Shown one piece after another: positions 597 through 25,739 of a DNA stretch of 33,748 bases (positions are counted from its first letter, which is position 1; the number at the start of each line of letters is the position of its first letter). The stretch lies in NCBI GenBank assembly GCA_009861545.1, contig VXME01000094.1:1-33748 (forward strand), in the 5' to 3' direction. Made by a program: the position numbers and the translations under genes. Under the pieces are notes generated by a model, which ran no database searches, had not been told where the DNA came from, and saw only the letters and a program-made list of their open reading frames with translations. This DNA comes from Acidobacteriota bacterium. Lineage in GTDB: Bacteria; Acidobacteriota; Vicinamibacteria; Vicinamibacterales; UBA8438.

Positions 597-1823
597 CTAG
601 CCGAAGTCGTCGAACAGAATGTTGTCGCGCTCCACCCCGAGGCCGTCCAGCATGTCCATGCACGCCTTCAGCATCATCGGCGGGCCGCAGAGGTAGTACT
701 CCACGTCCTCGGGCGCCGGGTGGTCCTTCAGGTAGTTGTCGTAGAGCACCTGGTGGATGAAGCCGGTCTTCCCGGTCCACCCGTCCTCGGGCAGCGGCTC
801 CGACAGCGCGAGATGCCACTCGAAGTTGTCGTGATCGGCGGCGATGGTGTCGAAGTCGTCGATGTAGAACGCCTCGCGCAGGCTGCGCGCCCCGTACCAG
901 AAGGTCACCCGGCGGTCGGTCCCGAGGCGCCGGAACTGGTCGAAGATGTGCGAGCGCATCGGGGCCATCCCCGCCCCGCCGCCGACGAAGACCATCTCGG
1001 CCGGGGTCTCCTTCGCGAAGAACTCGCCGAACGGGCCCGAGATGGTCACCTCGTCGCCCGGCTTCAGGCTGAAGATGTAGCTGGTCATCTTGCCCGGCGG
1101 CGTCCCCTCCGGCGCCCGCGGCGGCGGCGACGCGATGCGGATGTTGAGCATGATGACGCCCTTTTCCTCGGGGTAGTTCGCCATCGAGTAGGCGCGCGTC
1201 ACCGGCTCGTCGAGCACCGCCGTGTAGCGCCACAGGTTGAACTTGTCCCAGTCGGCGCGGTACTCCTCCTCGACGTCGTAGTCGCGGTAGTCGTAGGCCC
1301 CGGGCGGGGCCTCGATCTGGATGTAGCCGCCGGCCCGGAACGGCACCTCCTCGCCGGCCGGCAGCTCCAGGATCAGCTCCTTGATGAAGGTGGCGACGTT
1401 GTGGTTCGAGCGCACCTTGCAGCGCCACTGGCGGATGTCGAAGACCTCCGCCGGCAGCTCGATGGCCATGTCCTGCTTCACCTTCACCTGGCAGGACAGG
1501 CGCACGCCCGCGCGCTCCTCGCCGCGGCTGAGGTGGCTGCGCTCGGTCGGCAGCACCGCGCCGCCGCCGTCGAGCACCGTCACCGTGCAGACGCCGCAAC
1601 TCCCCTTCCCGCCGCACGCCGAGGGAATGAACAGCCGGTTGTCGGCCAGCGTGCCCAGCAGCGTGCCGCCGGCCGCGGTGCACAGCGCCTTGTCCGCGTC
1701 GCCGTTGACGGTGATGGTCACCTCGCCGGTGGCGACGAGCTGCCGCCGGGCGGCCATCAGCAGGCCGACCAGGGACACGATCACGAACGTGAACATCGCG
1801 ACGCCGAGGGTGACGGTGACCAT
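597..1823 (-). CDS. nqrF: Na+-translocating NADH:quinone reductase subunit F
   Basis: NqrF is the NADH-oxidising entry subunit of Na+-NQR: it passes electrons from NADH through FAD and a [2Fe-2S] cluster to the membrane subunits. The 408-residue protein starts at ATG 1823 with one N-terminal membrane helix (residues 3-24). A ferredoxin domain follows with cluster ligands Cys70, Cys76, Cys79 and Cys111, then an FAD-binding motif RAYS (210-213) and the NADH-domain loop GGGAGMAP (281-288); the CGPPMM motif lies near the C-terminus. Length equals the family norm. Upstream in-frame sequence to 1985 is Arg-rich and not conserved-looking, so the internal ATG is preferred. It is separated from nqrE by about 480 bases holding a small gene with its own promoter, which is unusual for nqr operons. 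Confidence 0.97.
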
Positions 1824-1831
1824 TTTGCTGC

Positions 1832-2240
1832 CTACCTGATCTCGTCGCCGAGCGCCTCGACGGACGCGCGGAGGACATCCTCGCCGACGACGTTGAGCAA
1901 CACGAGCGCCAGCCTCCGCGTCTTGGCCTCCATGCCGAGTTGTTCGTCCGCCTCCAGGCTCGCCGGACCGTGTTCGCGAACGCAATCGCGTTCAGGACGC
2001 ACCGGACCGCGCACGATCCCCCTGCGCCTGCTGGACCACGACTTCAAGTCCCATATCCTCCAGCCCGGCGACCGTGCGCCGGAAATCGGCGTCCGACGTG
2101 CCCGCGTTTACGAGATCGCGCAGGGGCATGACGCCCTTCATCTCCACTCGGGACCTGATCTTTTTCAGATTCTGCCGCTTGATCCGCTCCTCCCGCAGGG
2201 TGTCGAGGAAAACGCTGGGACCGATCACTCGTCGACTCAT
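1832..2240 (-). CDS. Small unknown gene between nqrE and nqrF, possibly frameshifted
   Basis: No family is recognised. Frame one runs from ATG 2240 (GAGG Shine-Dalgarno 6 bases upstream) to a stop at 1992, 82 residues, beginning [15 protein letters not shown] and rich in basic and helix-forming residues. It ends in [12 protein letters not shown] just after a run of five Gs (about 2017-2021). Dropping one G joins it to the adjacent frame, which stays open to TAG at 1832 and reads convincingly as protein (for example [19 protein letters not shown]). The joined product would be about 136 residues and would stop 8 bases before nqrF, giving normal operon spacing. Alternatives are two separate small genes, programmed slippage, or a sequencing or assembly error in the G run. 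Possible roles, such as an Nqr assembly or regulatory factor, are only guesses from position. Confidence 0.5.
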
Positions 2241-2265
2241 CACTCACCTCACCACGGCAAGATTC

Positions 2266-2294
2266 ACGATAGAACGACACCGCTGGCACGTCAA
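2266..2294 (-). promoter_or_regulatory. Promoter for the small gene and nqrF
   Basis: On the minus strand TTGACG (2294-2289), a 17-base spacer and TATCGT (2271-2266) sit just downstream of the nqrE stop at 2308. The predicted start near 2259 gives a short leader before ATG 2240. This suggests nqrF can be transcribed independently of nqrBCDE. Confidence 0.6.
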
Positions 2295-2307
2295 CGGAAC
2301 CGGCGGA

Positions 2308-2925
2308 TCAGAGCTGCACCCCGGCGAAGGCCATGAAGCCGAGCGCCATCAGCCCCACCAGCATGAACGTCAGCCCGAGGCCCCGCAGCCCCGCCGGCGG
2401 GTTCGAGTAGCGCAGCCGCTCGCGGATGCCGGCCAGCGCGATCACCGCCAGCGCCCAGCCGATGCCCGAGCCGAGGCCGAACACCGCGCTCTCGGCCAGC
2501 GTGTAGCTGCGCTCCACCATGAACAGCGAGGCCCCCAGGATGGCGCAGTTGACGGCGATGAGGGGCAGGAAGATGCCCAGCGCGGCGTGCAGCGGCGGCG
2601 CGAAGCGGTCCAGCACCATCTCGACGATCTGCACCATCGCGGCGATGGTCCCGATGTAGGAGAGGAAACCGAGGAACGACAGGTCGTAGGCGGCCAGCGA
2701 CGGGTGCAGCCACGCCATCGCGCCCGGGCTCAGCAGGTGCGCGTAGATCAGGTTGTTCATCGGCACGGTGATCGTCAGCACGAAGACCACGGCGCCGCCG
2801 AGGCCGATGGCCGTGCTCACCTGCCGCGAGACGGCCAGGAACGAGCACATGCCGAGGAAGAAGGCCAGGGCCATGTTCTCGACGAACATCGCCTTGACCG
2901 CGAGGCTCAGGTAGTGCTCCAGCAT
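2308..2925 (-). CDS. nqrE: Na+-translocating NADH:quinone reductase subunit E
   Basis: NqrE is a six-helix inner-membrane subunit. It is homologous to NqrD and packs against it in inverted orientation; the pair shares an iron-sulfur centre in the middle of the membrane. The 205-residue protein is almost wholly hydrophobic helices. It keeps the conserved cysteines in GMCSFLAVS (helix 1) and AVNCAILG (later helix), which are the known ligand positions. Start ATG 2925 overlaps the nqrD stop as TGATG, so the two are translationally coupled. Length is close to the usual 198. Confidence 0.96.
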
Positions 2926-3545
2926 CAGTCGGCCTCCACCTGATCGGTCTTCCAGCTCCGCAGCGCCCAGATCAGGAACCCGATGATGAAGAAGGCGGCC
3001 GGCGACAGCACCATCAGCCCGTTCGGCGTGTACCAGCCCGCCTCGCTCGCCAGCGGCAGCACCGTCGTCCCGAACAGGGTGCCCGAGCCGAGCAGCTCGC
3101 GCAGGAAAGCGGTGATCATCAGGATCACCCCGTAACCGAGGCCGTTGCCCAGCCCGTCGATCAGGCTCATGCCCGGCGGGTTCTGCATGGCGTAGGCCTC
3201 GGCCCGCCCCATGATGATGCAGTTGGTGATGATGAGCCCCACGAAGACGGTGAGCTGCTTCGACAGCTCGAACAGGTACGCCTTCAGCACCTGGTCGACC
3301 ACGATCACCAGCGAGGCGATGATCGTCAACTGCACGATGATGCGGATGTTCGTCGGGATCTGGTTCCGCAGGGCGCTGACGAAGAAGTTCGAGGACATGA
3401 TGACGACGACCACGGCCACGCTCATCACCAGCGCCGTGTCCATGCGGGTGGTCACCGCCAGGGCCGAGCAGATGCCGAGCACCTGCAGGGCGATCGGGTT
3501 GTTGTTGAACAGCGGGTCGATCAGCGCGTCGCGCGTCTTCGCCAT
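2925..3545 (-). CDS. nqrD: Na+-translocating NADH:quinone reductase subunit D
   Basis: NqrD is the partner of NqrE in the membrane core of Na+-NQR. The 206-residue protein begins [17 protein letters not shown], with the family's typical N-terminus. It has about six membrane helices and the paired conserved cysteines in GICSALAV (Cys26) and ITNCIIMGR that, with those of NqrE, hold the intramembrane iron-sulfur centre. ATG 3545 overlaps the nqrC stop (TGATG), and its own stop overlaps the nqrE start in the same way. The longer open frame upstream is antisense-like noise inside nqrC. Confidence 0.96.
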
Positions 3546-4321
3546 CAGCCGTCCCTCCGCGTCCGGAGCGCCTCCAGGTAGGGGCCGAAGCCCTGCTCGT
3601 CGAGCCAGAAGCGCAGCATGTTGGTCACGCCGCGGCTCGTCATCGTGGCGCCGGCGAGGCCGTCCACCCGGTACGGATCGTCGGCCGGCGGCCCGGCCAG
3701 CCCCTTGATGACCTCGATGGCCGGCGCGCCGTCGGGGCCGAACGCCTTGCGGCCGTTCCACAGGCTCTTCCAGCGCGGGTTGTCCACCTCGCCGCCGAGC
3801 CCCGGCGTCTCCTTGTGCTCGTAGTAGGTCAGCCCGCGGATGGTCTCCAGGTCGGCGTCGAGGGCCACGAAGCCGTACAGGATGCCCCACAGGCCGAGGC
3901 CGTGGACCGGCAGCACCACCAGGTCGAGCGCGCCGCCGTCGCCGCGCAGCTCGTAGACCAGCGCCTGGTCGGCCACCCGCTGCAGCCCCGCGTTGTTGGG
4001 CGGCGCCGTCTCGCTCGTATCCGGATCCGCGGCCGCGGCGCGCGGATCGAAACCGGTCGGATCGGCGCCGGTGGCCGCGCCGGTCTCGCGATCGATGACC
4101 ACCTGCGTGATCGGCGCGAAGCGCGCCCCGATCTCGTCCGGCTCCAGCCTCTCGTCGGGGGCCGCCAGCCCGGCCGCCACCAGCACGTTGCGCTGCATGT
4201 CGAGGGTCTGGTTGATCTCCTGCCGCTCGCGCAGCGCCACCGCGGAGGACGACACCACGATGGCGCAGGCCACGCAGACGACGGCCGCGAAGCCCAGGTT
4301 GTAGACGACGCTACCCTGCAT
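3545..4321 (-). CDS. nqrC: Na+-translocating NADH:quinone reductase subunit C
   Basis: NqrC carries a covalently bound FMN on the outer side of the membrane and relays electrons between NqrDE and NqrB. The 258-residue protein has one N-terminal membrane helix (about 8-30) and then a periplasmic FMN-binding domain. The flavinylation motif is D220-G-L-A-G-A-T226-M-T-S, with Thr226 as the expected FMN attachment site. The residue before GAT is Ala, where Ser or Thr is usual. The conserved region [15 protein letters not shown] and [10 protein letters not shown] are present. The start at 4321 overlaps the nqrB 3' end by 11 bases. The flavin transferase ApbE, which is needed to load FMN, is not in the window. 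Confidence 0.96.
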
Positions 4322-5531
4322 AGCGCGCCCTCCGCCGCCGCACGTTCATCCGGATCGCGGCGTAGTCGATCAGCGGCGCGAACAGGTTCATGAACAGGAT
4401 GGACAGCATCATGCCCTCAGGATACGCCGGGTTGACGACGCGGATGAGCACGACGAGCATGCCGATGAGAAAGCCGTACGCGAAGTGGCCCCCGCGCACC
4501 GAGGGGGCCGACACCGGGTCCGTGGCCATGAAGACGGCGCCGAACGCCCAGCCGCCGATCACCAGGTGCCAGGCGGGGCTCACGTCGAAGAAGGGATTCG
4601 TCGCCGACCCGATCGCGTTCAGCCCCGCCGCGGTCAGGAGCGTGCCGGCGGCGACGCTCACCATGATGCGCCACGAGCCGACGCCGGTGCCGACCAGCAG
4701 CGCCGCCCCGGCCAGGCAGGCGAGCACCGAGGTCTCGCCCATCGAGCCGGGCACGAAGCCGACCAGCGCCCGCCACCAGTCGAAGTCGGCCGCCATGTCC
4801 GCCGTCCCCCCGAGGGTGGCGACGGCCAGCGCGGTGGCCCCGCTGACCGCATCGGTGGACGTGTCCGCCGCTATCCAGACCGCGTCGCCCGACATCGCCG
4901 CCGGGTAGGCGAAGAAGACGAAGGCGCGGGACACCAGGGCCGGGTTCAGCACGTTCATGCCGGTCCCGCCGAAGATCTCCTTGCCGACCACGATGCCGAA
5001 CGAGATGCCCAGCGCCACCTGCCACAGCGGAATCGTCGGGGGCAGGACCAGCGGGAACAGCATCCCGGTGACGAGGAAGCCCTCGTTCAGCTCGTGCTTG
5101 CGCACCACCGCGAACAGCGCCTCCCAGAGGCCGCCGACCGCGAAGGTGACCAGCACGATCGGCAGGTAGTAGAGGCCGCCGTGGACAAGGCAGCTCAGCA
5201 GGTCGTCGGGCGCGAAGCCGAGGCCGAGCGCCTGCATGGCGCCGGTCTGCCAGGTCGCGAGCGGCGCCGCCCCGCCCGCAATGGCCAGGTTGGCCTGGTA
5301 GCCGGTGTTGTGCAGCGCCATCCAGACGCAGCCGGCCAGCGCGATGACGACCGTGATCATCATCCGCTTCAGGTCGAGCCCGTCGCGCACGTGGGACGGG
5401 CCGGCGGTGACCTGGCCGGGGGTGTAGAGAAAGCTGTCCTGGGCTTCCCAGAGCGGGTACAGGCGCTCGAGCTTGCCGCCCGGCTCGAAGTGATGCGCCT
5501 GCGCGTCGAGCAGGCGCCGCAGGAACTTCAT
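4311..5531 (-). CDS. nqrB: Na+-translocating NADH:quinone reductase subunit B
   Basis: NqrB is the largest membrane subunit. It holds a covalent FMN and riboflavin and forms the Na+ path and the quinone-reducing end. The start is ATG 5531 ([20 protein letters not shown]), which matches the family's N-terminus; the extension to 5729 crosses a terminator-like hairpin and is not coding. The 406-residue protein has about ten hydrophobic segments. Its flavinylation motif is DAVSGATAL, with Thr233 the expected FMN site. Typical loops HNTGYQAN and [13 protein letters not shown] are present. It heads the tightly coupled block nqrBCDE. In most genomes nqrA directly precedes it; here nqrA is 540 bases upstream. 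Confidence 0.97.
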
Positions 5532-5636
5532 GGCGCGATCCGCGCTTCGTGGCTCGTGGACAGGCGCGCCGCCGGCGTTTCGTGCTTCTCCGCGCGGGCG
5601 CCCGCTGCTTGTGATTTTTTTCTCAAGCGCGGCGTC

Positions 5637-5661
5637 AAAAAAAGACGGGGACCCGTCCCCG
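5637..5661 (-). terminator. Hairpin plus T-run between nqrA and nqrB
   Basis: On the minus strand CGGGGAC-GG-GTCCCCG (5661-5646) is followed after TC by seven Ts (5643-5637), an intrinsic-terminator shape. It lies about 410 bases past the nqrA stop and 105 bases before nqrB, so it could isolate the two units. The AGTTCGGGGACGGGTCCCCG form also resembles REP-type palindromes scattered in many genomes, so it could be a repeat element instead. The bases between it and nqrB (5532-5636) hold no gene; a weak TTGACG directly after the T-run might start nqrB transcription. Confidence 0.5.
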
Positions 5662-5756
5662 AACTCCTCACCATCGTACCGCCGGCCCCGGAGGCAAGTC
5701 AATCCGGCCGGAAATGCAAGCCTCTCCACCAGCGGAGGTGGCAGATTCCGCCACCC

Positions 5757-5785
5757 TTGACAACCCTTTGGCCGGCACGCATGAT
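5757..5785 (+). promoter_or_regulatory. Promoter of the small membrane gene at 5800
   Basis: TTGACA (5757-5762, a perfect -35) is followed after 17 bases by CATGAT (5780-5785, four of six matches to -10). The predicted start near 5792 would leave a very short leader carrying GAGG before GTG 5800. Confidence 0.5.
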
Positions 5786-5799
5786 GGACGTGAGGTCAC

Positions 5800-6054
5800 G
5801 TGCGGATGACAATCGAAGTCCTTACGATAATCCTGACGGGTGTGAGCGTCACGGCGGGCGTCCTGCTGGGCGTCTGGCGGATGCTCGCGCACTACGAATC
5901 CCGGAACGACGCCGCGCACGCCGAGCTCGGGAGGCGTATCGACGGCGCGCGCGTGGAGCTCGGCGCGCGGATCGACGAGATGGGCAAACGGATCGACCTG
6001 GTGAACGGCCGGATCGACCTCGTCTACCAGGAGCTCGTCAAGAGCCGCATCTGA
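5800..6054 (+). CDS. Small membrane-anchored coiled-coil protein
   Basis: The 84-residue protein starts at GTG 5800 (GAGG 4 bases upstream) or ATG 5806. One hydrophobic helix (about residues 5-28) is followed by a charged helix of heptad character with repeats built on GRRIDGARVEL, GARIDEMGKRIDLV and NGRIDLVYQEL, where the IDxxxxRID pattern places Ile and Leu on one face. No catalytic motif is seen and no family is assigned. It is transcribed against nqrA and nqrB and so breaks the usual nqrAB junction. Several other tiny proteins of the same build occur in this window (24120, 25242, 28895, 32054), although the sequence here is not a close copy of them. Confidence 0.65.
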   Translation: MRMTIEVLTIILTGVSVTAGVLLGVWRMLAHYESRNDAAHAELGRRIDGARVELGARIDEMGKRIDLVNGRIDLVYQELVKSRI

Positions 6055-6070
6055 CGCTCCGCGGGGGCGA

Positions 6071-7453
6071 TCAGCCTTCCGTCCGCAGCGTCTCCAGCAC
6101 GCGGCGCAGGTGCGGCGCGAAGTCGGTCTTCCCGGGATCGACGAACGTGCAGAGGGCGACGTCCTCCTCGTCCAGCTCCAGGCAGCCGAGCTCTTCGGCG
6201 CGCTCGACGTCGTGCATGACGAGCGCCCGCAGCATCGGGGTCGCCAGCAGGTCCAGCGGCATCACCCGCTCGTACATCCCGATGGGGACGATGGCGCGCG
6301 GCGAGCCGTGCGTGGAGGTGGTCATCGCGAACCGGCGGCCGGGAATCAGCCGCGAGGCGAACGTGCGGACCGTCGAGAACGTGTCGAAGCCCGGACCGAG
6401 CCAGCCCAGGAACTCGCGGTCGCGCCCCTCGGCGAGCACCGACACCTGCTGATGGTAGCGTCCCAGGTACCCGTGGACCTCGCCCGCGGCCGCGCGACCG
6501 GAGAGCACCGACCCCGAGACGATCCGGTGCTCGCGATCCGGATCGACCTCGCCCTCCAACAGCGTCGGGGTCGCGGCGCCGATGCGCGTGCGGAGAAGCC
6601 GCGGCCGGGCGACCGGCGGCCCCCCGAGCGCCACGACGCGCGAGGCGTCGAGCACCCCGGTCTCGAAGAGGCGGCCCGTCGCGATGACGTCCTGCACGCC
6701 GACGTGCCAGACGACCTTGCCGCGGTCCACCGGATCGAGGGTGTGGATATGCACGCCGGCCGTCCCCGCCGGATGCACGCCCTCGAAGACCTCGTGGCGG
6801 ATCTGGTTGGCGGCCGAGACCGGCGCGTGCACGCGGTGGCCGGGTCCCGTGCAGACGAACACCGGCCCCGGGGTCAGCCGCGCCAGGGCTTCCAGCCCGC
6901 GCTCGAAGGGACCTTCCCGGCCCTGCAGGATGGCCGCCACGTCGGGTGCGAGGGGATTGGTGTCGATGGCGGTGACGAAGATCGAATGCGGACGGGCCGC
7001 CGGATCCGCCACGCGGCCGAAGGGCCGGGCCCGCAACGCCGTCCACTGCCCCGACTCGAGCAGCAGGTCCCGGACCTCGCTCTCGGTCATGCCGCTGGGG
7101 TGACGCCCGGACCAGGCCGCGAACCCGGCCGACTCGGGCTCGCGCCCTTCCCGCTCGGCCCGGCTCGGCTCGATGACCACCGACTGCAGGGCGCGCCGCG
7201 CGCCCCGGTTGATCGCCCGGACCGTGCCGGCCGCCGGCGCCGTATAGCGCACCCCCGGCATGGTCTTGTCCTCGAACAGGAGCTGGCCGCGGGAGACCGA
7301 ATCGCCCACCGACACGTGCATCGTCGGGCGCAGGCCGACGTAGTCGGCGGCCAGCAGCGCGACGCGACGCGCCGGGGGGGCGTCTTCGATGGACGGCTGC
7401 GGGGCGCCGGCGATCGGCAGGTGCAAGCCGCGTGTGATCCGGTGGGTTGGCAT
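6071..7453 (-). CDS. nqrA: Na+-translocating NADH:quinone reductase subunit A
   Basis: NqrA is the cytoplasmic-side subunit without cofactors that contacts NqrB and has been linked to quinone binding. From ATG 7453 (MPTHRITRGLHLPIAG) the protein has 460 residues, near the family norm of about 446. Typical stretches seen are DYVGLRPTMHVSVGDSV, LLFEDKTMPGV, an N-terminal biotinyl/lipoyl-like fold, and the C-terminal MHDVERAEELGCLELDEEDVALCTFVDPGK region, which ends ahead of a short tail. A TTG codon at 7474 in frame is an alternative start. It stands alone, with the downstream nqrB block 540 bases away behind an opposite-strand gene and a hairpin. Confidence 0.95.
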   Translation of the reverse strand: MPTHRITRGLHLPIAGAPQPSIEDAPPARRVALLAADYVGLRPTMHVSVGDSVSRGQLLFEDKTMPGVRYTAPAAGTVRAINRGARRALQSVVIEPSRAEREGREPESAGFAAWSGRHPSGMTESEVRDLLLESGQWTALRARPFGRVADPAARPHSIFVTAIDTNPLAPDVAAILQGREGPFERGLEALARLTPGPVFVCTGPGHRVHAPVSAANQIRHEVFEGVHPAGTAGVHIHTLDPVDRGKVVWHVGVQDVIATGRLFETGVLDASRVVALGGPPVARPRLLRTRIGAATPTLLEGEVDPDREHRIVSGSVLSGRAAAGEVHGYLGRYHQQVSVLAEGRDREFLGWLGPGFDTFSTVRTFASRLIPGRRFAMTTSTHGSPRAIVPIGMYERVMPLDLLATPMLRALVMHDVERAEELGCLELDEEDVALCTFVDPGKTDFAPHLRRVLETLRTEG

Positions 7454-12921: not shown

Positions 12922-13140
12922 ATGATCGTCAGCAAGCTCACCACCAAGGCGCAGACCACGATCCCCAGGGCGGTACGGATCGCGCTCGGACTCGACCCCG
13001 GCGACGAGCTCATCTACGAGATCGACGGCGCAAGGGTCGTGCTGACGAAGGCCCGGCCCGGAGCCGTAGCCGACGATCCGTTCCGCACGTTCCGCGAGTG
13101 GGGTACCAAAGCGGACGCCGAGGCGTATGCCGACCTTTGA
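12922..13140 (+). CDS. AbrB/MazE-type antitoxin
   Basis: The 72-residue protein begins MIVSKLTTKAQTTIPRAVRIALGLDPGDELIYEIDG, a textbook SpoVT/AbrB swapped-hairpin DNA-binding domain (T-x-K-x-Q-x-T-I-P, then LGLxPGDxLxY). The short acidic tail DDPFRTFREWGTKADAEAYADL would bind and neutralise the toxin. It overlaps the toxin gene by 14 bases, the usual coupled arrangement of antitoxin before toxin. Binding to the palindrome in its own promoter is expected for the family. Confidence 0.92.
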   Translation: MIVSKLTTKAQTTIPRAVRIALGLDPGDELIYEIDGARVVLTKARPGAVADDPFRTFREWGTKADAEAYADL

Positions 13141-13468
13141 GCAGGGTGACGTCATCAAGGTTCCGTTCCCGTACACCGACCGAGCCACGCGACAGTCGCG
13201 ACCGGCGCTTGTGGTGTCGACGGACACTCTCGAGACCGCGCACGGTTTACTCTGGGTTGCGATGATCACCAGCGCAGCCAACCGCGGTTGGCCCGGAGAC
13301 GTAGCGGTCAAGGATCTCGCTCAGGCCGGGCTACCCGCTCCTTCGGTCATCCGCACCGCCAAGATCGCCACCATCGAGTCGTCTGACGCGCGCCGGCTCG
13401 GCCGCATTGCGGCCGCTCAGCGCCGGCAGGTCATCCGCCGGGTGGTCCGCATGCTCGGCGTCCGATGA
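13127..13468 (+). CDS. MazF/PemK-type ribonuclease toxin
   Basis: The 113-residue protein has the PemK/MazF beta-barrel pattern: FEQGDVIKVPFPYTD (loop with G-D-x-x-x-x-x-F-P), RPALVVS, then MITSAANRGWPGDV and PSVIRTAKIATI. Members are mRNA interferases that cut RNA at short sites and are held inactive by the co-encoded antitoxin. Arg in SRPALVV and Thr/Ser in MITS sit at positions used in catalysis in the family. Its 3' end overlaps by 38 bases a possible small gene on the other strand. Confidence 0.92.
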   Translation: MPTFEQGDVIKVPFPYTDRATRQSRPALVVSTDTLETAHGLLWVAMITSAANRGWPGDVAVKDLAQAGLPAPSVIRTAKIATIESSDARRLGRIAAAQRRQVIRRVVRMLGVR

Positions 13469-13640: not shown

Positions 13641-15158
13641 TCAACCGGCCTGCGGCAGCGCGCGCGGCGGGACCGGCGACACGTCGATGACCTCGCGGCG
13701 CGCCGGGCGGGCGAGCCACCAGACGACGGCGGCGGGCAGGACGAGCGCCCAGCCCCGGATCAGGCCGACGTGCGGGTTGAAGCCGTAGTGATGGGCGAGC
13801 TCGCCGACCAGCACGCCCAGCACCGCCTGCGCCAGGACCACGCCGCCGAGCCCGAGCAGGGCGCGCCGCCACGATCGACCGCCGCCGGCCACCGCGATCC
13901 AGAGCGCGGTGAACAGGCCGACCTGGAAGGCGGGCAGGATGGCCCAAGCGCCCTGGTCGTCGGCGAAGGCGTGGGCCGCGCGGCCGCCGAGGGCCTGCCG
14001 GCCCGCCGCGGCGCCGCCCGCCATCGCGCCGAGCACCGGCGCCGCGACGAACGCGGCCACCGCGCCCAGTGCGATCGCCACACCCGCGCGCGCCGCGCCG
14101 CGCCGCGCCGCGCGCGCCGTCACGAACGCCGCCGCGGCGACCAGCAGGACGGCGACCAGCGTCTGCGAGAAGGCGTGGATGGCCGTCACGTACGATCCCA
14201 CGACCGCGGCCGGAACAGCCAGCACCAGCAGGCGCGAGACGCCGAGGGCGAAGAAGACGGCCGGCGTCGCCAGAAGCATGGCCGTCCGGCGCTTCCAGCC
14301 CAGGGGCGCGGCGAGGGCGCCGGCCAGATAGAGCGGGATGAGCGGGGTGAAGATGCACTCCTGCGTGACGACGAAGGCCCCATGCCGGGTGAAGATGAGC
14401 GCCTCGTGCACGTTCGCCCTCGTGCCCGCCGCGCTCAGGATGGTACCGCCGGCCATGGCGATCCACCCGGCGATCACGTCGACGGCCGGGCTCTCGTAGA
14501 AGAACGGGGCGGTGGCGAAGTAGGCCACCACGAGCAGGGCCGCCAGCAGCAGGAACCGCCGCGCCGCGGGGCCGAGGACCGCGTCGCCGGGCAGCGCGCC
14601 GGCCGCCGCCCCGCCGCCGGGGCCGCCGTCCGCGGCAGTCCCCTGCCGGCCCATCCAGGCGTAGACGAACCCGGCCGCCGCGAGAATCAGGACGCCGGGC
14701 CAGATGTAGACGTGCAGCAGATCGAGCAGCGCCCGGTCCTCGGCCACCAGCGACAGATTGCCGAGCCGGACGACGTTCAGGGCGGTGATGACGGTCAGGC
14801 CGACCACGGCCCCGCGCAGCCGCGCCCCCCAGGTGGCGGGATACGCGAGGATCGCTCCGGCGCACAGCGCCATCGGGTCGCCGCCGCTGCAGCTCGCGTC
14901 GGCATAGACGAGGTTCGACGGCGCGCCGGTGAGCTGGTCGGCCACCCCCTGCTGAAGCTGCGCGAACGGCGTCAGAAGCGTCCGCTCCACCCACGGCAAC
15001 CGCATCAGGCCGAACAGACCGACGAACCAGGCGCCGGTCACGAGCGTGAACCGGAGCATGCCGTCCGACGCCGGCCCGGCCGGCGCGGGGACGGCCGGCT
15101 TCCCGGCGGTCGAGGGCTCGAGCTCCGCCCCCGGCGCTGGTGTCTTCTCTGCGTCCAT
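13641..15158 (-). CDS. Double-domain exosortase/archaeosortase-family membrane protein
   Basis: Exosortases are inner-membrane Cys proteases or transpeptidases that cut C-terminal sorting tails of exported proteins; the catalytic set is Cys, Arg and His. This 505-residue, mostly hydrophobic protein shows that set twice. Core 1: Cys90 in ASCSGG, Arg113, Arg131 in ALNVVR and His149 in LLHVYIWPG. Core 2: Cys268 in TQECIF, Arg291, Arg309 in ALGVSR and His328 in AIHAF. From Cys to the second Arg is 41 residues in both, and a Pro and the first Arg also fall at identical offsets. Residues 350-490 add four more hydrophobic segments. Core 1 has the better canonical Cys-Ser-Gly; core 2 may be degenerate or specialised. 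ATG 15158 overlaps the methyltransferase stop (TGATG). Single-core family members are usually 180-300 residues. Confidence 0.8.
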   Translation of the reverse strand: MDAEKTPAPGAELEPSTAGKPAVPAPAGPASDGMLRFTLVTGAWFVGLFGLMRLPWVERTLLTPFAQLQQGVADQLTGAPSNLVYADASCSGGDPMALCAGAILAYPATWGARLRGAVVGLTVITALNVVRLGNLSLVAEDRALLDLLHVYIWPGVLILAAAGFVYAWMGRQGTAADGGPGGGAAAGALPGDAVLGPAARRFLLLAALLVVAYFATAPFFYESPAVDVIAGWIAMAGGTILSAAGTRANVHEALIFTRHGAFVVTQECIFTPLIPLYLAGALAAPLGWKRRTAMLLATPAVFFALGVSRLLVLAVPAAVVGSYVTAIHAFSQTLVAVLLVAAAAFVTARAARRGAARAGVAIALGAVAAFVAAPVLGAMAGGAAAGRQALGGRAAHAFADDQGAWAILPAFQVGLFTALWIAVAGGGRSWRRALLGLGGVVLAQAVLGVLVGELAHHYGFNPHVGLIRGWALVLPAAVVWWLARPARREVIDVSPVPPRALPQAG

Positions 15159-16030
15159 CAGGCCGCTCCTTCCCCGGCGGGCGGTTCCACCGCCCGCGCG
15201 CCGGCCGCCTCGTCCGTGGCGGGCCGCACCGCGACCGTCGCCAGCAGGTATCCATGCCGCCGCAGCCACGGCCAGCGGCGCGACGCCAAGTCGAACGGTG
15301 CGCACAAGGCGCCCGTCAACCGGCCGAGCGGCCGGAGCCACGTGTGGCAGGCGAGGTCGAGCATCCGCAACCAGCCCGGTATGAACAGGATACCGGTCTC
15401 GGCGGTCACCGTAAAGCCGGCCCGCTCCAGCATCCGGCGGAAGACGGGCCGCGCGTACGACTTCTCGAAGCCGTAGTCGTAGAGGCCCAGGTGGTAGAGC
15501 GCCGCCACCAGCGCCGGGCGCAGGAACGGGTCGCGGCGGTTCGGAACGCCGATCACGGCCCGGCCGCCCGGGCGCAGCACGCGGAAGATCTCGCGCAACG
15601 CGCCGTCGGTGTCGTCGAAGTGCTCTACGGTCCCCATCGAGTAGATCGCGTCGAAGCTGCCGGAGCGGAACGGCAGCTTCCGGACGTCGCCGCGCACGCC
15701 GCCCAGCGCGAGCCCGGCCGCGGCGAAGCCGGCGCGGGCGTCGGCGACGATGGCGCCCGAGATGTCCACGCCGAACGCGTGCGCCCCGCGCCCGGCGGCC
15801 CAGCGCAGGATGCGGGTGTTCCGCGCCTCGTCCCAGAGATCGGTCTTCAGCACCCGGCTGCCAGCCAGGTCGGGAAGGTGCGTGCGCAGCAGCCACTCCT
15901 CGTCCGCGCGGTACTGCGCGGTGGAGCGTGCGCCGCCCAGATCCGGGAAGTTGTTGCCGACGTCGGCCCAGAAGCCGCGGTAGCGCGCCTCGCTGTCGGC
16001 GTCGCCCGCTGCTATCGGCGCCCTACGCAC
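15158..16030 (-). CDS. Divergent class I SAM-dependent methyltransferase
   Basis: The start is taken as GTG 16030 (GGA 6-8 bases upstream, overlapping the speD stop by 8 bases), giving 290 residues; the longer frame to 16099 would lie inside speD. The Rossmann core is recognisable from GVDIS (motif post-I acidic end), RGDVRKLPFRSGSFDAIYSMGTVEHFDD (motif II) and EIFRVLRPGGRAVIGVPNR (motif III). The usual glycine-rich motif I is replaced by RVLKTDLWDEARNTRIL. A C-terminal region has amphipathic or hydrophobic stretches (ILFIPGWLRMLDLACHTW). Substrate is unknown. Coupling by TGATG to the exosortase and overlap with speD suggest a joint role. An aminopropyl transfer role is conceivable given SpeD, but the sequence looks like a methyltransferase. 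Confidence 0.85.
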   Translation of the reverse strand: MRRAPIAAGDADSEARYRGFWADVGNNFPDLGGARSTAQYRADEEWLLRTHLPDLAGSRVLKTDLWDEARNTRILRWAAGRGAHAFGVDISGAIVADARAGFAAAGLALGGVRGDVRKLPFRSGSFDAIYSMGTVEHFDDTDGALREIFRVLRPGGRAVIGVPNRRDPFLRPALVAALYHLGLYDYGFEKSYARPVFRRMLERAGFTVTAETGILFIPGWLRMLDLACHTWLRPLGRLTGALCAPFDLASRRWPWLRRHGYLLATVAVRPATDEAAGARAVEPPAGEGAA

Positions 16031-16412
16031 CGGCCGTCCGCGACGCGGAGGATCCGCCGGCGATCGCCAGCTCGCGCCAATCGGACGACCCGGGCGCAAA
16101 GCAGAGCGTGTCGAGCGCGTCGCGCAGCCGCTCGGCCTTTCCGGCGTTCGAGGCGCGGTAGTCGCAGACGTGGAGATCGAGAGTGGCCCGGTCCTGCTCC
16201 GGCCAGAGGTGCATCACCAAGTGGGACTCGGCCAGCACCCAGACCAGCGTGGCGCCGCCGCCGGGAAAGGGGACGGACTGCTCGGCAACCACGTTCAGCC
16301 CGGCCGCCCGCACCTGTGCGGCAACCGCGGCCAACATGCCCGTCGCCGCGTCTCCGGCCGCCCGCAGGTCGTCGGAGCGGGTTCCGCCCCCGACAAAATG
16401 ATGTGCAATCAA
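16023..16412 (-). CDS. speD: S-adenosylmethionine decarboxylase proenzyme-like
   Basis: Prokaryotic AdoMet decarboxylases self-cleave before a Ser, which becomes the pyruvoyl cofactor, and make decarboxylated SAM for polyamine synthesis. Starting at TTG 16412 (IAHHFVGGGTRSDD) the protein has 129 residues, and the key residues fall at Ser63 (AESH), His68 (MHLWPE) and Cys83 (HVCDY). These are the same numbers as in the well-studied Thermotoga enzyme, which is the main reason for this start over the upstream TTG or GTG codons near 16499. The whole pattern ESHLVMHLWPEQDRATLDLHVC is family-like. No spermidine synthase is adjacent; instead a methyltransferase and exosortase follow, so its role could be outside ordinary polyamine synthesis. 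A promoter lies just upstream. Confidence 0.85.
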   Translation of the reverse strand: MIAHHFVGGGTRSDDLRAAGDAATGMLAAVAAQVRAAGLNVVAEQSVPFPGGGATLVWVLAESHLVMHLWPEQDRATLDLHVCDYRASNAGKAERLRDALDTLCFAPGSSDWRELAIAGGSSASRTAGA

Positions 16413-16469
16413 GGGTAGTCGTTCCGGGATACCGGGCCGCCCGTCATCGACCAGCCCATGCGCGAGCAG

Positions 16470-16499
16470 AAGATAGCACAAGTCGCGCGCCAACACCAA
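16470..16499 (-). promoter_or_regulatory. Candidate promoter of speD-methyltransferase-exosortase
   Basis: On the minus strand TTGGTG (16499-16494) and TATCTT (16475-16470) are spaced by 18 bases. A start near 16463 would give a leader of about 50 bases before TTG 16412. It separates this unit from the glycosyltransferase gene that ends at 16610. Confidence 0.4.
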
Positions 16500-16609: not shown

Positions 16610-19117
16610 TCAGGGCGCGGGCTCCGCGGGCGGCGGGTCGACCAGCACGCGATACAGGCGCACGCCGAGATCACGCCGGTCCGGCGACGAACCGAAGGCT
16701 TCCGGCCGGAACGTCGTCGACTCGATCTCCAGCTCGATCGGGCCCGGGCCGCCGGTCTCCGGCAGGTCCATCCGGACCGCCTGCGGGGTCCCCGCCAGCG
16801 TCCACCGCCCGAGCACCCGCTCTCCGACCGACACGGTGATCTCGGCCGGCGCCACGCCGGGCGGGCGGGGGCCCGCAGCGACGAGCGTGACGGCGCTCGC
16901 CGCCGGCAGCCTGAGGGACGCGCGCGGACCGGTCCAGCGGAACGTCCGGCGGGTCGGACCCCGCTCGGGCTCGGACGCATGGAAGCCCCGCAGGTCGTAC
17001 AGGAGGTCGACGGCGGGCGTCCCGACGTCGACATCCAGCCGCTCGCCGTCCGCCGTCCCCGTGACCTGGAAAAACCGCAGCAGGATCGGCGTGCGCACGA
17101 CCGCCTGCGGGACCCGGGCGCGTGTGACTTCCAGGGTGCGGAGGTCGATCTGCGTCCGGCCGATCGCGGCCAACGCCAGGTCCGGCGCGAAGAACGAGAA
17201 ATCGTCCCGCCCGACGACGAAGAACACCGCCCGCCCGCCCGCAAGCCAGTCCCCGATGACGCGCCGCAGGACCCGGCCGTCGGGACCGGGCCCCTGGACG
17301 AGGATGGTGTCCACGTCATGGAGGTAGGCCAGCGACGTCGGGATGTGCGTGCCGGCCAGATCCGGACTCATCAGCACGACCGCCCGCTCGGGGAATAGCC
17401 GCGCCACCGGCGCGAGGGAATCGTCCCACAGCGGCTGGCCGATCAGCGCGAGGCTCGGGCGCGCGACCAGCCCCACGAGGAGCGCGCCGGCGGCCAGGGT
17501 CAGCCCCACCCGGTACCGGGGGGCGGGCACGCGGGCCAGCAGGCCGACCGCGGCCAGCGCGGCGAAGAGCATCGTGAGGGGAAGGACGACCGGCACGAAC
17601 CGCCGCATCGACCCGATCTGCACGCCCGTCTCCAGCGGGTCGTACAGATACTGCAGGCCGACGACGCCGAGCAGCAGGCCGGCAAAGACCAGCCCCGCCG
17701 GGGCGGCGCGCCGGACGAGTCCCAACCCCGCGAGTCCCGACACCGCCAGCCCCAGCCCCGCGAGGCCGAGCACCGGCCAGGAGAAGTACCACCCCAACCA
17801 GGAGATCGTCTCGTCGAGCCGGCCCGTGGTGGCCGTCACGTAGGCGGCGCCGTAGACGACGAGCCCGCCCGCCGCGGCCAGTCCCCACAGACGCCGGACC
17901 CACCGCTCCTCCGGCCGGCGGAGCCCGACGACGCCGGCAGCGACCAGCACCCCCGTGGCCAGGGCCACGCCTGCCTGCAGCAGGAAGGATTCCCGCAGCA
18001 GGCCGAGCACCTCGGACGTCCGCATCAGGTACGCCACGTACGGCCTGTAGTGCGAGTCGAAGGTAAGGTAATGCACGAGGTTGTGCGCCATCAGCAGGCC
18101 GAACGTCCCCAGCAGGGGCAGAAGCAGGGGCGGGTCGTCCGGCCGCGCGCGTCCGAGGAGCCGCACCGCGGCGACGGCCAGCAGGAAGACGCTCAGCAGG
18201 ACGACGAGATCGACCTTGGCGAAACAGGCCAGGCCCAGGAACCAGCCCGCGGCGCACGCCCACCGCGGGGCGCCGCGCGCGGTCGCCACCAGCCACGCGA
18301 GCACCCCGGCCACCACGAAACACTGCGCGACCGTCTCCGGCAGCGGGACCTTCGCGAACCAGATCTGCGGCATCGAGACCGCCGTCAGCGCGGCCGCGAG
18401 CCAGGCGGCGGGCACGCCGCCCAGCCGCCGCGCCACGCACCACAGGCCGATCAGGCTCAGGGTCGCGAAGAGGGGCGCCACGACCAACGCCCCCTGCGGC
18501 GAGACCAGCGTATGGCCCAGGGCCGTCAGGACCGGAAACAGCGGGGAGAAGCCCGTGGTCACCGTCGGATCGGCAATGTCCGGGATCAGGAAGCCGCCCG
18601 GGAAGCGCGAGTACGGCCGCCCGTCCAGGGCCACGCGCACCGTCCACACCACGTCGCCGGGCACCCGATTCAGGAACAGCGCGCCGCGGCTGTCGGCCGG
18701 CAGCCGGCGTACCAGCGGGTCCTCGAACTCGAGCGCGCCGTGACGAGCAATCTGCCGGCTGAAGTTCAGATAGACGGTAGCGTCGCCGGCGGCCATCTCG
18801 GTGTGGTACGGCGGAAGGAACAGCGCGGCGCATACCAGGATCCCGGCCGCCGCGGCCAGCGCAGGACGCCATCCGCCGCCGGACGCGGGGGGCGCGGGCG
18901 GAGCCGCGCGGAGGGAGCCCCACAGGCCGAACCCGATCACCGCGACCGCGAGCATGAACGCCAGCAGGCCCAGCCGGAGCAGGCCGAGCTCGGCGAGCAA
19001 CAGCGCCGACCACGCCACGATGCTCACGCCCAGCATCGCGCGGAGGAACCAGCGCTCCACGCGCGACGCGTACCCGCGGTCTTCGGTGTCGGGCCTTTCC
19101 GGCTGCGCCGCGGTCAT
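16610..19117 (-). CDS. GT39-like polytopic membrane glycosyltransferase
   Basis: The protein has 835 residues from ATG 19117, 5 bases after the gmd stop. An N-terminal half to two thirds of about 11-13 hydrophobic helices is followed by a soluble C-terminal part with beta-rich character (about 600-835). The first large extracytoplasmic loop holds YHTEMAAGDATVYLNFSRQIARHG, where the acidic residues are placed as in PMT/ArnT-type (GT-C) enzymes that transfer sugars from polyprenyl-phosphate donors. KVPLPETVAQCF and QPLWDDSLAP are other notable loops. Acceptor is unknown. Neighbours suggest glycosylation of exported proteins or of a lipid-linked glycan; the polyprenol-phosphate-mannose synthase at 29185 could supply the donor. 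The frame continues backwards through gmd antisense phase, but that is a shadow. Confidence 0.8.
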   Translation of the reverse strand: MTAAQPERPDTEDRGYASRVERWFLRAMLGVSIVAWSALLLAELGLLRLGLLAFMLAVAVIGFGLWGSLRAAPPAPPASGGGWRPALAAAAGILVCAALFLPPYHTEMAAGDATVYLNFSRQIARHGALEFEDPLVRRLPADSRGALFLNRVPGDVVWTVRVALDGRPYSRFPGGFLIPDIADPTVTTGFSPLFPVLTALGHTLVSPQGALVVAPLFATLSLIGLWCVARRLGGVPAAWLAAALTAVSMPQIWFAKVPLPETVAQCFVVAGVLAWLVATARGAPRWACAAGWFLGLACFAKVDLVVLLSVFLLAVAAVRLLGRARPDDPPLLLPLLGTFGLLMAHNLVHYLTFDSHYRPYVAYLMRTSEVLGLLRESFLLQAGVALATGVLVAAGVVGLRRPEERWVRRLWGLAAAGGLVVYGAAYVTATTGRLDETISWLGWYFSWPVLGLAGLGLAVSGLAGLGLVRRAAPAGLVFAGLLLGVVGLQYLYDPLETGVQIGSMRRFVPVVLPLTMLFAALAAVGLLARVPAPRYRVGLTLAAGALLVGLVARPSLALIGQPLWDDSLAPVARLFPERAVVLMSPDLAGTHIPTSLAYLHDVDTILVQGPGPDGRVLRRVIGDWLAGGRAVFFVVGRDDFSFFAPDLALAAIGRTQIDLRTLEVTRARVPQAVVRTPILLRFFQVTGTADGERLDVDVGTPAVDLLYDLRGFHASEPERGPTRRTFRWTGPRASLRLPAASAVTLVAAGPRPPGVAPAEITVSVGERVLGRWTLAGTPQAVRMDLPETGGPGPIELEIESTTFRPEAFGSSPDRRDLGVRLYRVLVDPPPAEPAP

Positions 19118-19122
19118 GGCGC

Positions 19123-20094
19123 TCAGGACCTGTCCGTCGCAAGCCGCTCGAGGTCCGCGTCGACCATCATCCGGACCAGTCCCTCGAAGTCGACGCTCGG
19201 CCGCCAGTCCAGCTCGGCCGCCGCCTTCGCCGGATCGCCGATCAGATGGTCCACCTCGGCCGGCCGCAGCAGCGCCGGATCCGTCCGCACGTGCGCGCGC
19301 CAGTCGAGGCCGGCGTGGGCGAACGCAATCTCGACCAGCTCGCGCACGGAACGGCTGGCCCCGGTGGCGATCACGTAGTCGTCGGCCGCCTCCTGCTGCA
19401 GCATCAGCCACATGGCCCGCACGTAGTCGCCCGCGAAGCCCCAGTCGCGCCGCGCGTCCAGGTTGCCGAGCGACAGCGCGTCGCAGAGGCCCGCCTTGAT
19501 CCGGGCCACACCGTCGGTGACCTTGCGGGTCACGAACTCCAGGCCGCGGCGCGGCGACTCGTGGTTGAAGAGAATGCCGGAGACCGCGAACAGGTCGTAG
19601 CTCTCGCGGTAGTTCACGGTGATGTAGTGGGCGAAGACCTTCGAGACGCCGTAGGGGCTGCGCGGATAGAAGGGCGTCAGCTCCGTCTGCGGCGTCTCGC
19701 GCACCTTGCCGAACATCTCGCTCGACGACGCCTGGTAGACGCGGATCGACGTGTCGACCTGCCGGATCGCCTCCAGGACCCGCGTGACGCCCTGCGCGTT
19801 GTACTCGCCGGTCAGCAGCGGCTGGTCCCACGACGCCGGCACGAACGACATGGCGGCCAGGTTGTAGATCTCGTGCGGCCGGACCTCGTCGACGAGCCGG
19901 ATGAGCGACAATTGATCGAGCAGGTCGGCCGGCCGCAGCGTGATGCGGTCCTGCAGATGGGCGATGCGCCAGTGGTTGGGCGTGCTGAGCCGGCGGGTAA
20001 CGCCGACCACCTCGTAGCCCTGCTCCAGCAGCAGCTCCGCCAGGTACGAACCGTCCTGCCCGGTGATTCCCGTGATGATGGCGCGTTTCGACAC
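19123..20094 (-). CDS. gmd: GDP-mannose 4,6-dehydratase
   Basis: This short-chain dehydrogenase converts GDP-mannose to GDP-4-keto-6-deoxymannose, the precursor of GDP-rhamnose, GDP-fucose and GDP-perosamine. The 323-residue protein starts at GTG 20094. It has the NADP-binding [15 protein letters not shown] at the N-terminus, the TRR arginines, [20 protein letters not shown], the catalytic SSSEMFG and YGVSK (Tyr and Lys) and [16 protein letters not shown]. All are diagnostic of Gmd. No reductase partner for the 4-keto sugar is next to it; the RmlD-like protein at 24368 is nearer to dTDP-sugar reductases. It heads the minus-strand run toward the exosortase. Confidence 0.96.
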
Positions 20095-20656: not shown

Positions 20657-22069
20657 ATGAGGAGCAAACGGCGATCAATCGTCGTCACTGGCGTGATGCT
20701 GTCGGCGCTGGTGTTCGGCTCGACGGCAGCTTCGGCGCAGACGGCGCCCCCCGGGGCCAGCGCCGTCGAAGTATCCGCCCTTGGTTACGATCAGCTCTTG
20801 GTGAGTTGGACGTCGGCCGCCAACAACACGGACCCTCCGGCGAGCGGCCAGGTTATCCGTGCCAGCTACCAGGTTGGCTACCTCAAGCACGCCTCCGCCA
20901 CCGCGTTCGGGGCGGGCTCGCCCATGACGATGACGGTCAACGCCGCGCAGTCGCAAGCTGTACTCACGGGCTTGGACGCCGGCTCGAGGTACGTGGTCGC
21001 GGTACGCGCCATTGCCGGCGCCGCGAATGCCGACGTGACGGACAAGGCGAACCAACCTTGGCAGTATCCCACCGCCGCCCCCGTGTCGACGTCGGCGGCG
21101 CCCATGCCCGAGACGATTCTCGAGCGCGACATCATGGTCACCGAGGGTGATATGGAGTTGGACGTCGAGTGGGATGCGCCCAGGCCGGACTCGACCTCAC
21201 GCACCTCCACCCTCACGATCACCGAGTACGAGGTTTCGTTCGGCGAGAAGGCGGACGGTTCCGACAGCAAGGTGTGGCCCGCTACGATCACCTCGCCCGT
21301 CGTGAACCTCGACCGGTTGAAGAACGACACCAAGTACTACATCGCCATCCGGTCGAAGAACAGCGCCGGTGGGTGGAGCATGTACGACTGGTCGGAAGCC
21401 GCGGAAGGCACGCCGATGGCTCCTGCGGAGCCGGAGCTCACCGCCCCCATGAACGTCATGGCGGATGCTGGCGATGGGATGATCGATGTTTCCTGGGATG
21501 CCGTTGAGGGTGCTGACTCCTACAAGGTGTCGTGGATGATGGCCGGTGGCAGTGCCACCTCCTCCGACACGGCGATGGGGACGTCCTACACCATCGAAAA
21601 CCTGATGAACGGAACGGAGTACTCCGTACAGGTCAGTGCCATGAAGGGCGACATGGAAGGCCCGATGTCGACGGCTATGATGGCCACGCCCATGGCAGAC
21701 CCGCTTGACGCCCCCATGAACGTCATGGTGGAGGCTGGCGATGGGATGATCATGGTTTCCTGGGACGCCGTAGATCGCGCTGACGACTACAAGGTGTCCT
21801 GGACTGCCGGCGGTGTCACCGCCAGCGCCATGACGATGGGGGCTACGTCCTACACCATCGAGAACCTGATGAACGGCACGGAGTACTCCGTGCAGGTCAG
21901 CGGCATGATGGGCGACATGGAAGGCCCGATGTCGACGGCTATGACGGCCACGCCCATGCCGGTGGAGCCGGTGCCTGCGTTGCCGCTGTTCGGCATGCTG
22001 GCCCTGGGTGCGGGTCTGGTGGCGGCCGGTCGCCGTCGCCTGCACGCGCAGCGGCTGCTGAAGAACTAG
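20657..22069 (+). CDS. Secreted fibronectin-III protein with exosortase-type C-terminal signal
   Basis: The 470-residue protein starts at ATG 20657 (GGAGG 7 bases upstream). A signal peptide (1-27, ending ASAQ) is followed by about four fibronectin type III-like domains: 34-130, 148-253, 262-346 and 352-434. The last two are near copies (APMNVM..AGDGMI.VSWDAV, YTIENLMNGTEYSVQVS) and very Met-rich. The C-terminus is VEPVPALPLFG (to 446), a hydrophobic helix (447-458) and RRRLHAQR. This tripartite tail is the layout of exosortase sorting signals; VPALPLFG fits the pattern of the IPTLxxWG class (hydrophobic-P-x-L-x-x-aromatic-G). It faces the exosortase operon and is a likely substrate. Function beyond being a surface adhesin or matrix-like protein is unknown. 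Confidence 0.88.
   Translation: MRSKRRSIVVTGVMLSALVFGSTAASAQTAPPGASAVEVSALGYDQLLVSWTSAANNTDPPASGQVIRASYQVGYLKHASATAFGAGSPMTMTVNAAQSQAVLTGLDAGSRYVVAVRAIAGAANADVTDKANQPWQYPTAAPVSTSAAPMPETILERDIMVTEGDMELDVEWDAPRPDSTSRTSTLTITEYEVSFGEKADGSDSKVWPATITSPVVNLDRLKNDTKYYIAIRSKNSAGGWSMYDWSEAAEGTPMAPAEPELTAPMNVMADAGDGMIDVSWDAVEGADSYKVSWMMAGGSATSSDTAMGTSYTIENLMNGTEYSVQVSAMKGDMEGPMSTAMMATPMADPLDAPMNVMVEAGDGMIMVSWDAVDRADDYKVSWTAGGVTASAMTMGATSYTIENLMNGTEYSVQVSGMMGDMEGPMSTAMTATPMPVEPVPALPLFGMLALGAGLVAAGRRRLHAQRLLKN
21447..21956 (+). repeat. Tandem copies of a fibronectin-III module
   Basis: Two direct copies, about 21447-21692 and 21713-21956, encode residues 264-346 and 353-434. Long stretches are almost identical at DNA level around the GDGMI, TIENLMNGTEYSVQV and EGPMSTAM blocks, showing recent duplication. 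Confidence 0.8.
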
Positions 22070-25241: not shown

Positions 25242-25739
25242 TCATGTCCTCCCGCCGGCCGGCGGGCCCGCGGGCGGCTCGTCCGGCGCGTCGGGGACGA
25301 CGCCCGGCGCCGCCGGGAGCGTGCCCGGAGAGCCCACGGTGAAACGGTGCGGTTCGTACGTCCGCTCCACGATCCCTTGCAGGCGGGCGAGGTCCTTGCC
25401 GTGGTCGTCGAGCTTCTCCTCGAGCCGCCGGCGGTCGTCCCGGGCGTCCGCGAAACCGGCCTGCACCTCGACGAACCGGCGGTCTACCTCGGCGAACCGG
25501 CGATCGATATCGGTCCTGACTTCGGTGAACCGGCGATCGATATCGGTCCTGACTTCGGTGAACCGGTGATCGATATCGGTCCTGACTTCGGCGAACCGGC
25601 GATCGACCTCGGCGAACCGGCGATCGAGACGCAGGTAGAAGAAACGAAGCACGGCCACCAGGATTCCGAGCGAGGTCAACTGGAGCGTCACCAGGCCGGC
25701 GACGGTTCCCACGAGTACGGCTGGATCGATAGTCGTCAT
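25242..25739 (-). CDS. Membrane-anchored hendecad coiled-coil protein
   Basis: The 165-residue protein starts at ATG 25739. One N-terminal membrane helix (about 8-32, VGTVAGLVTLQLTSLGILVAVL) is followed by a long charged helix of 11-residue repeats built on RRFAEVRTDID, a hendecad pattern (right-handed or straight coiled coil). A further helix [27 protein letters not shown] and a Pro/Ala-rich tail follow. The 33-base DNA repeats (about 25498-25600) are nearly perfect. No family is assigned. It is co-transcribed with smpB and rmlD. A paralogue without the repeats is at 28895 and scraps lie at 22552 and 24309. Confidence 0.8.
   Translation of the reverse strand: MTTIDPAVLVGTVAGLVTLQLTSLGILVAVLRFFYLRLDRRFAEVDRRFAEVRTDIDHRFTEVRTDIDRRFTEVRTDIDRRFAEVDRRFVEVQAGFADARDDRRRLEEKLDDHGKDLARLQGIVERTYEPHRFTVGSPGTLPAAPGVVPDAPDEPPAGPPAGGRT
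25490..25625 (-). repeat. 33-base tandem repeats coding 11-residue units
   Basis: Units of 33 bases containing CGATCGATATCGGTCCTGAC recur three times with near identity, flanked by shorter diverged units. They stay in frame and encode RTDIDRRFTEV-type hendecads. Copy number is likely to vary between strains. Confidence 0.8.

Follow-up and report, generated by a model that had tools for sequence, protein, structure and literature searches.

The gene at positions 13641-15158 of the window (the whole 33,748-nucleotide stretch of DNA analysed here) raises the question of whether one polypeptide can carry two exosortase cores and, if it does, what an enzyme of this type would do with two active sites. 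A preliminary description of this DNA had noticed that two segments of the 505-residue product align without gaps from a catalytic Cys to a second Arg, and had proposed that they were tandem catalytic cores, leaving their division of labour to several readings. The gene and its parts are as follows.

13641-15158, minus strand: double-core exosortase, 505 aa, with ATG at 15158 and stop at 13641
14643-15053, minus strand: core 1 (residues 36-172), triad C90, R131 and H149; C-x-G, N-x-x-R and W153 kept; nearest to exosortase H
14109-14567, minus strand: core 2 (residues 198-350), triad C268, R309 and H328; three short beta strands ahead of the Cys, as in exosortase H; canonical Gly and Asn replaced, Gln kept
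13707-14108, minus strand: C-terminal membrane region (residues 351-484), predicted helices 351-390, 404-424, 430-458 and 464-483; D400, Q402, P409, Q412, R468 and P475 invariant in the 27-copy alignment described below

Homology and predicted fold of the two cores

All of the residues claimed for the two segments were present, both in core 1 (C90/P107/R113/R131/H149, with offsets of +17, +23, +41 and +59 from the Cys) and in core 2 (C268/P285/R291/R309/H328, offsets +17, +23, +41 and +60). The gapless match from the Cys to the second Arg was recovered by profile-profile alignment of core 1 with core 2 (hhalign, 92% probability, E 5.6e-7), and the profile score of 45.5 exceeded those of all 100 block-shuffled core 2 controls, the best of which reached 35.8. 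Scanned separately, both halves matched exosortase models: the N half matched XrtH (3.7e-14) together with exosortase X and XrtM, and the C half matched XrtX (5.3e-5), pacearchaeosortase (6.7e-4) and exosortase Y. In a scan of the whole protein, residues 251-347 matched pacearchaeosortase at 6.7e-6. Furthermore, each of the XrtH, XrtX and exo_archaeo models finds two matching stretches per protein in more distant relatives, and four of these loci (L056, L061, L070 and L071) have two stretches matched by XrtH and other exosortase models. The separate matches of the halves, the score above the shuffled controls and the double matches in relatives indicate that the likeness between the cores is due to homology, and rule out a chance match in low-complexity membrane sequence. 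The gene product is thus almost certainly an exosortase with two cores. It passes the superfamily cut-off of the exo_archaeo signature TIGR04178 (23 bits) with 36.2 bits for the N half and 33.8 bits for the whole protein, and scores 45.8-53 bits on the XrtH model (TIGR04177), below its cut-off of 86; a distant homologue, L056, reaches 88.4 bits on that model. The double-core protein therefore belongs to the exosortase superfamily and is akin to exosortase H, though below the cut-off of that family.

Whether the second half folds like an exosortase was checked on an AlphaFold2 model built from 26 sequences (mean pLDDT 82.7), by comparing the order of predicted elements, not by superposition. 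Core 2 is modelled with helices 197-221 and 224-243, three strands within 248-263, Cys 268, and helices 273-283, 288-320 (with a one-residue break) and 323-348. A reference single-core exosortase H of the same phylum (AlphaFold, pLDDT 88.7) has helices 8-55 and 57-81, three strands within 87-101, Cys 106, and helices 109-121, 126-157 and 159-189. The two share one order of two helices, three strands, the Cys and helices spanning approximately +3/5 to +15, +20 to +52 and +53/55 to +80/83; in each of them the Arg is at +41 and the His at +60. Core 1 shows the same helices after Cys 90 (93-105, 110-137 and 142-172) and no strands. In both cores of the model the triad residues lie at the ends of successive membrane helices, and helix order together with the positive-inside pattern suggests that the two triads are exposed on the outer side of the inner membrane.

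In the same model the last three helices of the C-terminal region prolong the helix pattern of the cores. A third exosortase repeat was considered for residues 351-484 on account of this similar helix order; the score against the cores (20.3) stayed below the best shuffled control (22.9) and homology was not supported, and no family matched these residues in the profile scan. Fold searches of the PDB gave generic helical matches only, with no Foldseek match at E <= 0.001 and a best Z of 6.9 in the VIA search, below the level deemed meaningful for helical bundles. A PDB sequence search with the double-core exosortase returned no match, and no solved exosortase structure was matched in any of these searches.

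Distribution and possible specialisation of the cores

Homologues with the same double layout, for which the preliminary description had proposed a survey, were found across Vicinamibacteria, a scan of a species-level genome collection giving full homologues of this layout in MAGs of Acidobacteria and Vicinamibacteria. Whole-genome searches placed the family in 27 of the 162 genomes of the window's order, in at least nine families and in several cases as fragments; a 28th listed genome (G126), with a single-core match, was left out of this count. One double-core genome (G223) belongs to another order of the same class, and the plasmids searched gave no match. In a sample of 396 genomes from the rest of the phylum, the profile matched mainly single-core proteins, through its N half, and most of the matched proteins tested were genuine exosortase H (above the 86-bit XrtH cut-off) with a single core of approximately 150 aa, in agreement with the earlier statement that exosortases are otherwise single-core enzymes. 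Within the window's taxonomic family, every intact double enzyme is the sole exosortase-signature match of its genome, and the genomes that do not carry it have none.

This distribution bears on whether two neighbouring single-core genes could have been fused by an error of assembly or annotation. One MAG, G017, does carry the two cores in two overlapping frames, but the same fusion occurs in more than 20 genomes, including G006 (three contigs, one of 6.1 Mb), with conserved core boundaries, so that an artefact is refuted for practical purposes and we assign it next to no probability.

Several individual copies depart from the common layout. The break in G017 (L038:6289-7652) lies in the inter-core linker and represents either a frameshift error or a truly split gene. 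A second, partial copy in G011 (L008:1606-2727), with core 2 and no core 1, and an N-terminal fragment with an in-frame stop on contig 94 of G026 (L025) look like decayed extra copies. A MAG assigned to Limnocylindrales (Chloroflexota) carries a Vicinamibacterales-like double exosortase, a SpeD-like gene and an IPTL-CTERM protein (L007:1-5219). It was not counted as spread to another phylum: its core 1 nests among Vicinamibacterales sequences and the MAG contig is 5.2 kb long, so mis-binning is likely.

In a tree of 94 columns, core 1 formed one clade (100/100) within single-core exosortase H sequences, and core 2 formed a separate, deep and fast-evolving group with long branches. Within the limits of these few columns and long branches, the position of core 2 gives no support to its origin by recent tandem duplication of core 1.

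Conservation was analysed in an alignment of 27 copies, the window and 26 loci, nearly all from class Vicinamibacteria; it includes the possibly mis-binned L007, an internally gapped locus (L063), one ending at a contig end (L062) and two copies from G105. Both triads, C90/R131/H149 and C268/R309/H328, were invariant wherever the column was present (26-27 of 26-27 copies), as was N128 of core 1. Judging from this alignment, the triad of each core is intact under strong purifying selection. Among the landmarks first described as shared by the segments, the Cys, the Arg at +41 and the His are thus invariant, whereas the Pro at +17 and the Arg at +23 of core 2 (7 and 13 of 19 copies, respectively) are not generally conserved.

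The residues around the triads were compared in 19 double-core copies and 13 single-core exosortase sequences. Core 1 keeps the Gly of C-x-G in 18 of the 19 copies and the Asn of N-x-x-R and the Trp after the His in all of them, and has Pro in place of the exosortase H Gln in 19/19. In core 2 the Gly, the Asn (now Gly or Ala) and the Trp are all lost, and the Gln is kept in 19/19; the C-x-G and N-x-x-R superfamily motifs are therefore satisfied by core 1 and not by core 2. Such complementary losses are the pattern expected if two once-equivalent sites had specialised, and the cores look as if this had happened.

The Gly of C-x-G and the Asn of N-x-x-R were described as invariant in the first alignment of EpsH, an exosortase (PMC1569441). 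Having lost both, core 2 might work by a different chemistry or serve as a structural or regulatory half. In the latter case only core 1 would cut, and core 2 would be a non-catalytic pseudo-core, there to hold the substrate or, as one half of an internal dimer, to make the fold complete. The loss of these residues, the fast-evolving deep branch and the grouping of core 1 alone with exosortase H are consistent with such a role, but none of C268, R309 and H328 varies in any copy with the column, and the exosortase H Gln, lost from core 1, is retained in core 2. Pseudo-halves usually lose such catalytic residues. We regard a pseudo-core as rather improbable, and the invariance of both Cys-Arg-His triads weakens the earlier suggestion that one half is catalytic and the other only holds the substrate. 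From the conservation pattern, both sites are probably catalytically active.

Candidate substrates and partner genes

The genes of the window that may be connected with the exosortase are as follows.

15158-16030, minus strand: SAM-dependent methyltransferase of class I, with a stop codon that overlaps the start of the exosortase gene (TGATG)
16023-16499, minus strand: protein of the pyruvoyl decarboxylase family, SpeD-like (AdoMet_dc), which retains the catalytic Ser, His and Cys; overlaps the start of the methyltransferase gene
16610-19117, minus strand: polytopic PMT_2-type glycosyltransferase, 835 aa; a homologue adjoins the exosortase in two relatives
19123-20094, minus strand: GDP-mannose 4,6-dehydratase
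20693-22069, plus strand: secreted-looking Fn3-repeat protein, likely substrate; tail VPALPLFG-hydrophobic-RRRL (IPTL-CTERM-like)

The Fn3-repeat protein ends in EPVPALPLFGMLALGAGLVAAGRRRL. Its VPALPLFG tail lies below the IPTL model cut-off (NCBIfam and Pfam models give no call) and was detected by a custom profile built with that tail. Similar tails are found on neighbours of the double exosortase in G011 (L030), G019 (L031) and G023 (L029), and a neighbour in G043 (L037:10272-11054) has the same tail type, VPTLPQW, with no IPTL call. IPTL-CTERM tails are called by NCBIfam on ice-binding-like proteins adjoining the gene in G031 (L036) and L007, and tails over the cut-off are encoded no more than a few kb from the enzyme gene in G031, G060, G063, G072 and G076; weaker tails are present in G106 and G141. 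In the window's order, 11 of the 13 genomes with motif-including, over-cut-off IPTL-CTERM matches have the double enzyme (p = 2e-8, in a test that ignores shared ancestry). The custom profile gave 17 matches in G008, eight in G013, three in G006 and two, one of them weak, in the window's genome; the 17 VPALP-type tails of G008 stand alongside a single exosortase, the double-core enzyme. Altogether, IPTL-like surface proteins are very probably the substrates of the double-core exosortase. A nearby 1485-aa metzincin reading frame was rejected as a substrate, no C-terminal signal being seen in it.

The same data bear on a reading in which the cores would be two parallel proteases, each serving its own sorting signal or substrate class. 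The motif residues flanking the triad differ between the cores and several tail variants exist (VPALPLFG, VPTLPQWG and IPTL), as two specificities would predict; however, only one tail class tracks the enzyme in the genomes checked, and template-based searching found no second signal class. We consider independent cores unlikely.

With respect to the partner genes, the SpeD-like gene, the methyltransferase and the exosortase follow each other in this order in the window with overlapping ends, which suggests translational coupling. The SpeD-like gene lies directly or two genes upstream in approximately 18 copies, and nine or so copies have no SpeD-like neighbour. The catalytic Ser, His and Cys are kept in nine aligned SpeD-like proteins, with what we take to be the Thermotoga maritima SpeD sequence used only as a ruler for the catalytic positions. 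Among the 28 genomes of the window's taxonomic family, the methyltransferase orthologue occurs in exactly nine, which are the nine whose double enzyme is intact; the SpeD-like gene occurs in these and in two incomplete genomes besides. The pair stays together even when unlinked from the exosortase, except in G008, and in G106 (L064:1408-3627) the methyltransferase is fused to the C-terminus of the double exosortase in one 740-aa reading frame. In addition, the polytopic glycosyltransferase neighbours the double exosortase in some loci.

The SpeD-like protein and the methyltransferase could be operon co-travellers unrelated to sorting, for instance in polyamine metabolism: feeding spermidine synthesis is the normal role of SpeD, and the methyltransferase belongs to a generic class I family. 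Against this, in the window's taxonomic family both track the exosortase even when unlinked (G008, G011, G019, G023 and G026), G106 has the exosortase and the methyltransferase in a single fusion, and the window's genome has no AdoMet_dc gene besides 16023-16499, so that its sole gene of this family, placed in the exosortase operon, may not be the usual polyamine enzyme. We therefore find mere co-travelling doubtful, and it is likely that both proteins act in the same pathway as the exosortase. A specific action on the acceptor, proposed by analogy, is a tentative suggestion that we would hold somewhat below an even chance.

Other features of the window were recorded. A MazE/PemK-like toxin-antitoxin pair (12922-13468) lies between ThiG and the exosortase gene. 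A Na+-translocating NADH:quinone reductase (Nqr) cluster occupies 597-7453 on the minus strand, with NqrA and NqrB assigned by Pfam, NqrF-like domains, and the other subunits assigned by position only. Two proteins (25242-25739 and 28805-29158) with no Pfam match have a common 16-residue stretch near their C-termini and are possibly products of duplicated genes. A similar kind of small protein, with a single membrane helix and a coiled coil, is found many times over in the window (5806-6054) and in its relatives (L028:1467-1739, L028:3917-4240, L033:4976-5293 and L030:15889-16236).

Proposed reaction and relation to known systems

The best-supported reading is that of a sortase-type enzyme with two working Cys sites, both triads being predicted on the outer membrane face. 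We hold it to be probable that the protein is an exosortase of the exosortase H (IPTL-CTERM) type with two active sites, working on VPALP/IPTL-tailed proteins. Surface proteins with a C-terminal signal of this type (short motif, membrane helix and Arg cluster) would be exported by Sec and stall in the inner membrane, where a Cys thiol of the enzyme would attack the motif on the outer face and form a thioester, from which the protein would be handed to an amine- or glycan-bearing acceptor. Both sites would take part, the first cut being most likely made by core 1, where nearly all of the motif residues of exosortase H are kept, and the divergent core 2 would either complete the transfer or process a second substrate or strand. 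The co-inherited SpeD-like decarboxylase and methyltransferase would most likely make or modify the acceptor, a role proposed from the analogy with archaeosortase A and PssA/PssD.

More specific versions of this scheme are held at lower strength. A sequential relay between the two sites is conceivable and, in our judgement, improbable. Still less probable is a division of one reaction, in which core 1 would cut the signal and form the first thioester and core 2 would join the protein to a dedicated amine acceptor supplied by the co-inherited decarboxylase and methyltransferase. If this were true, the enzyme would be a relay transpeptidase with two sites, and the anchor of its surface proteins would be of a new type.

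In many bacteria and archaea, the anchoring or release of surface proteins is the work of exosortases and archaeosortases; for the bacterial enzymes, the paper describing the family called the acceptor unknown (PMC1569441). The decarboxylase and methyltransferase inherited with the double enzyme are candidate members of the pathway to this acceptor, and a natural two-site enzyme with complementary motif losses offers a built-in route to which residues bind, cut and transfer. The open-access literature searched holds no description of a two-core exosortase, and little on exosortase H, and none of the family models matching the window protein spans two cores. An enzyme otherwise seen with one site thus occurs here in an apparently undescribed two-site form that is conserved in relatives.

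One of the closest known systems is exosortase H (XrtH, TIGR04177). In the tree, core 1 falls with the single-core XrtH of other Acidobacteriota; core 2 has the predicted element order of XrtH, and IPTL-CTERM proteins (TIGR04174/PF18203) adjoin and co-occur with the double enzyme; however, XrtH is a single core of approximately 160-200 aa, whereas the window protein adds a second core and a C-terminal membrane region to reach 505 aa. Exosortases X and Y (NF046081 and NF046083) and pacearchaeosortase (NF033505) provide the best profile matches of core 2, but these are single-core models of 167-168 positions and core 2 scores far below their cut-offs. Fusions of exosortases to EpsI or CAAX-protease-like domains have been described (PMC1569441), and they resemble the present protein in joining a core to another domain, although their partner is not a second exosortase core. 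Finally, archaeosortase A needs homologues of phosphatidylserine synthase and decarboxylase (PssA and PssD), with archaetidylethanolamine as the proposed nucleophile (PMC7157517). Sorting in that system, as proposed here, depends on a lipid-amine pathway that includes a decarboxylase and is sometimes gene-linked; archaeosortase A is single-core and PssD acts on archaetidylserine, whereas the partner of the double-core exosortase is a protein of the AdoMet decarboxylase family.
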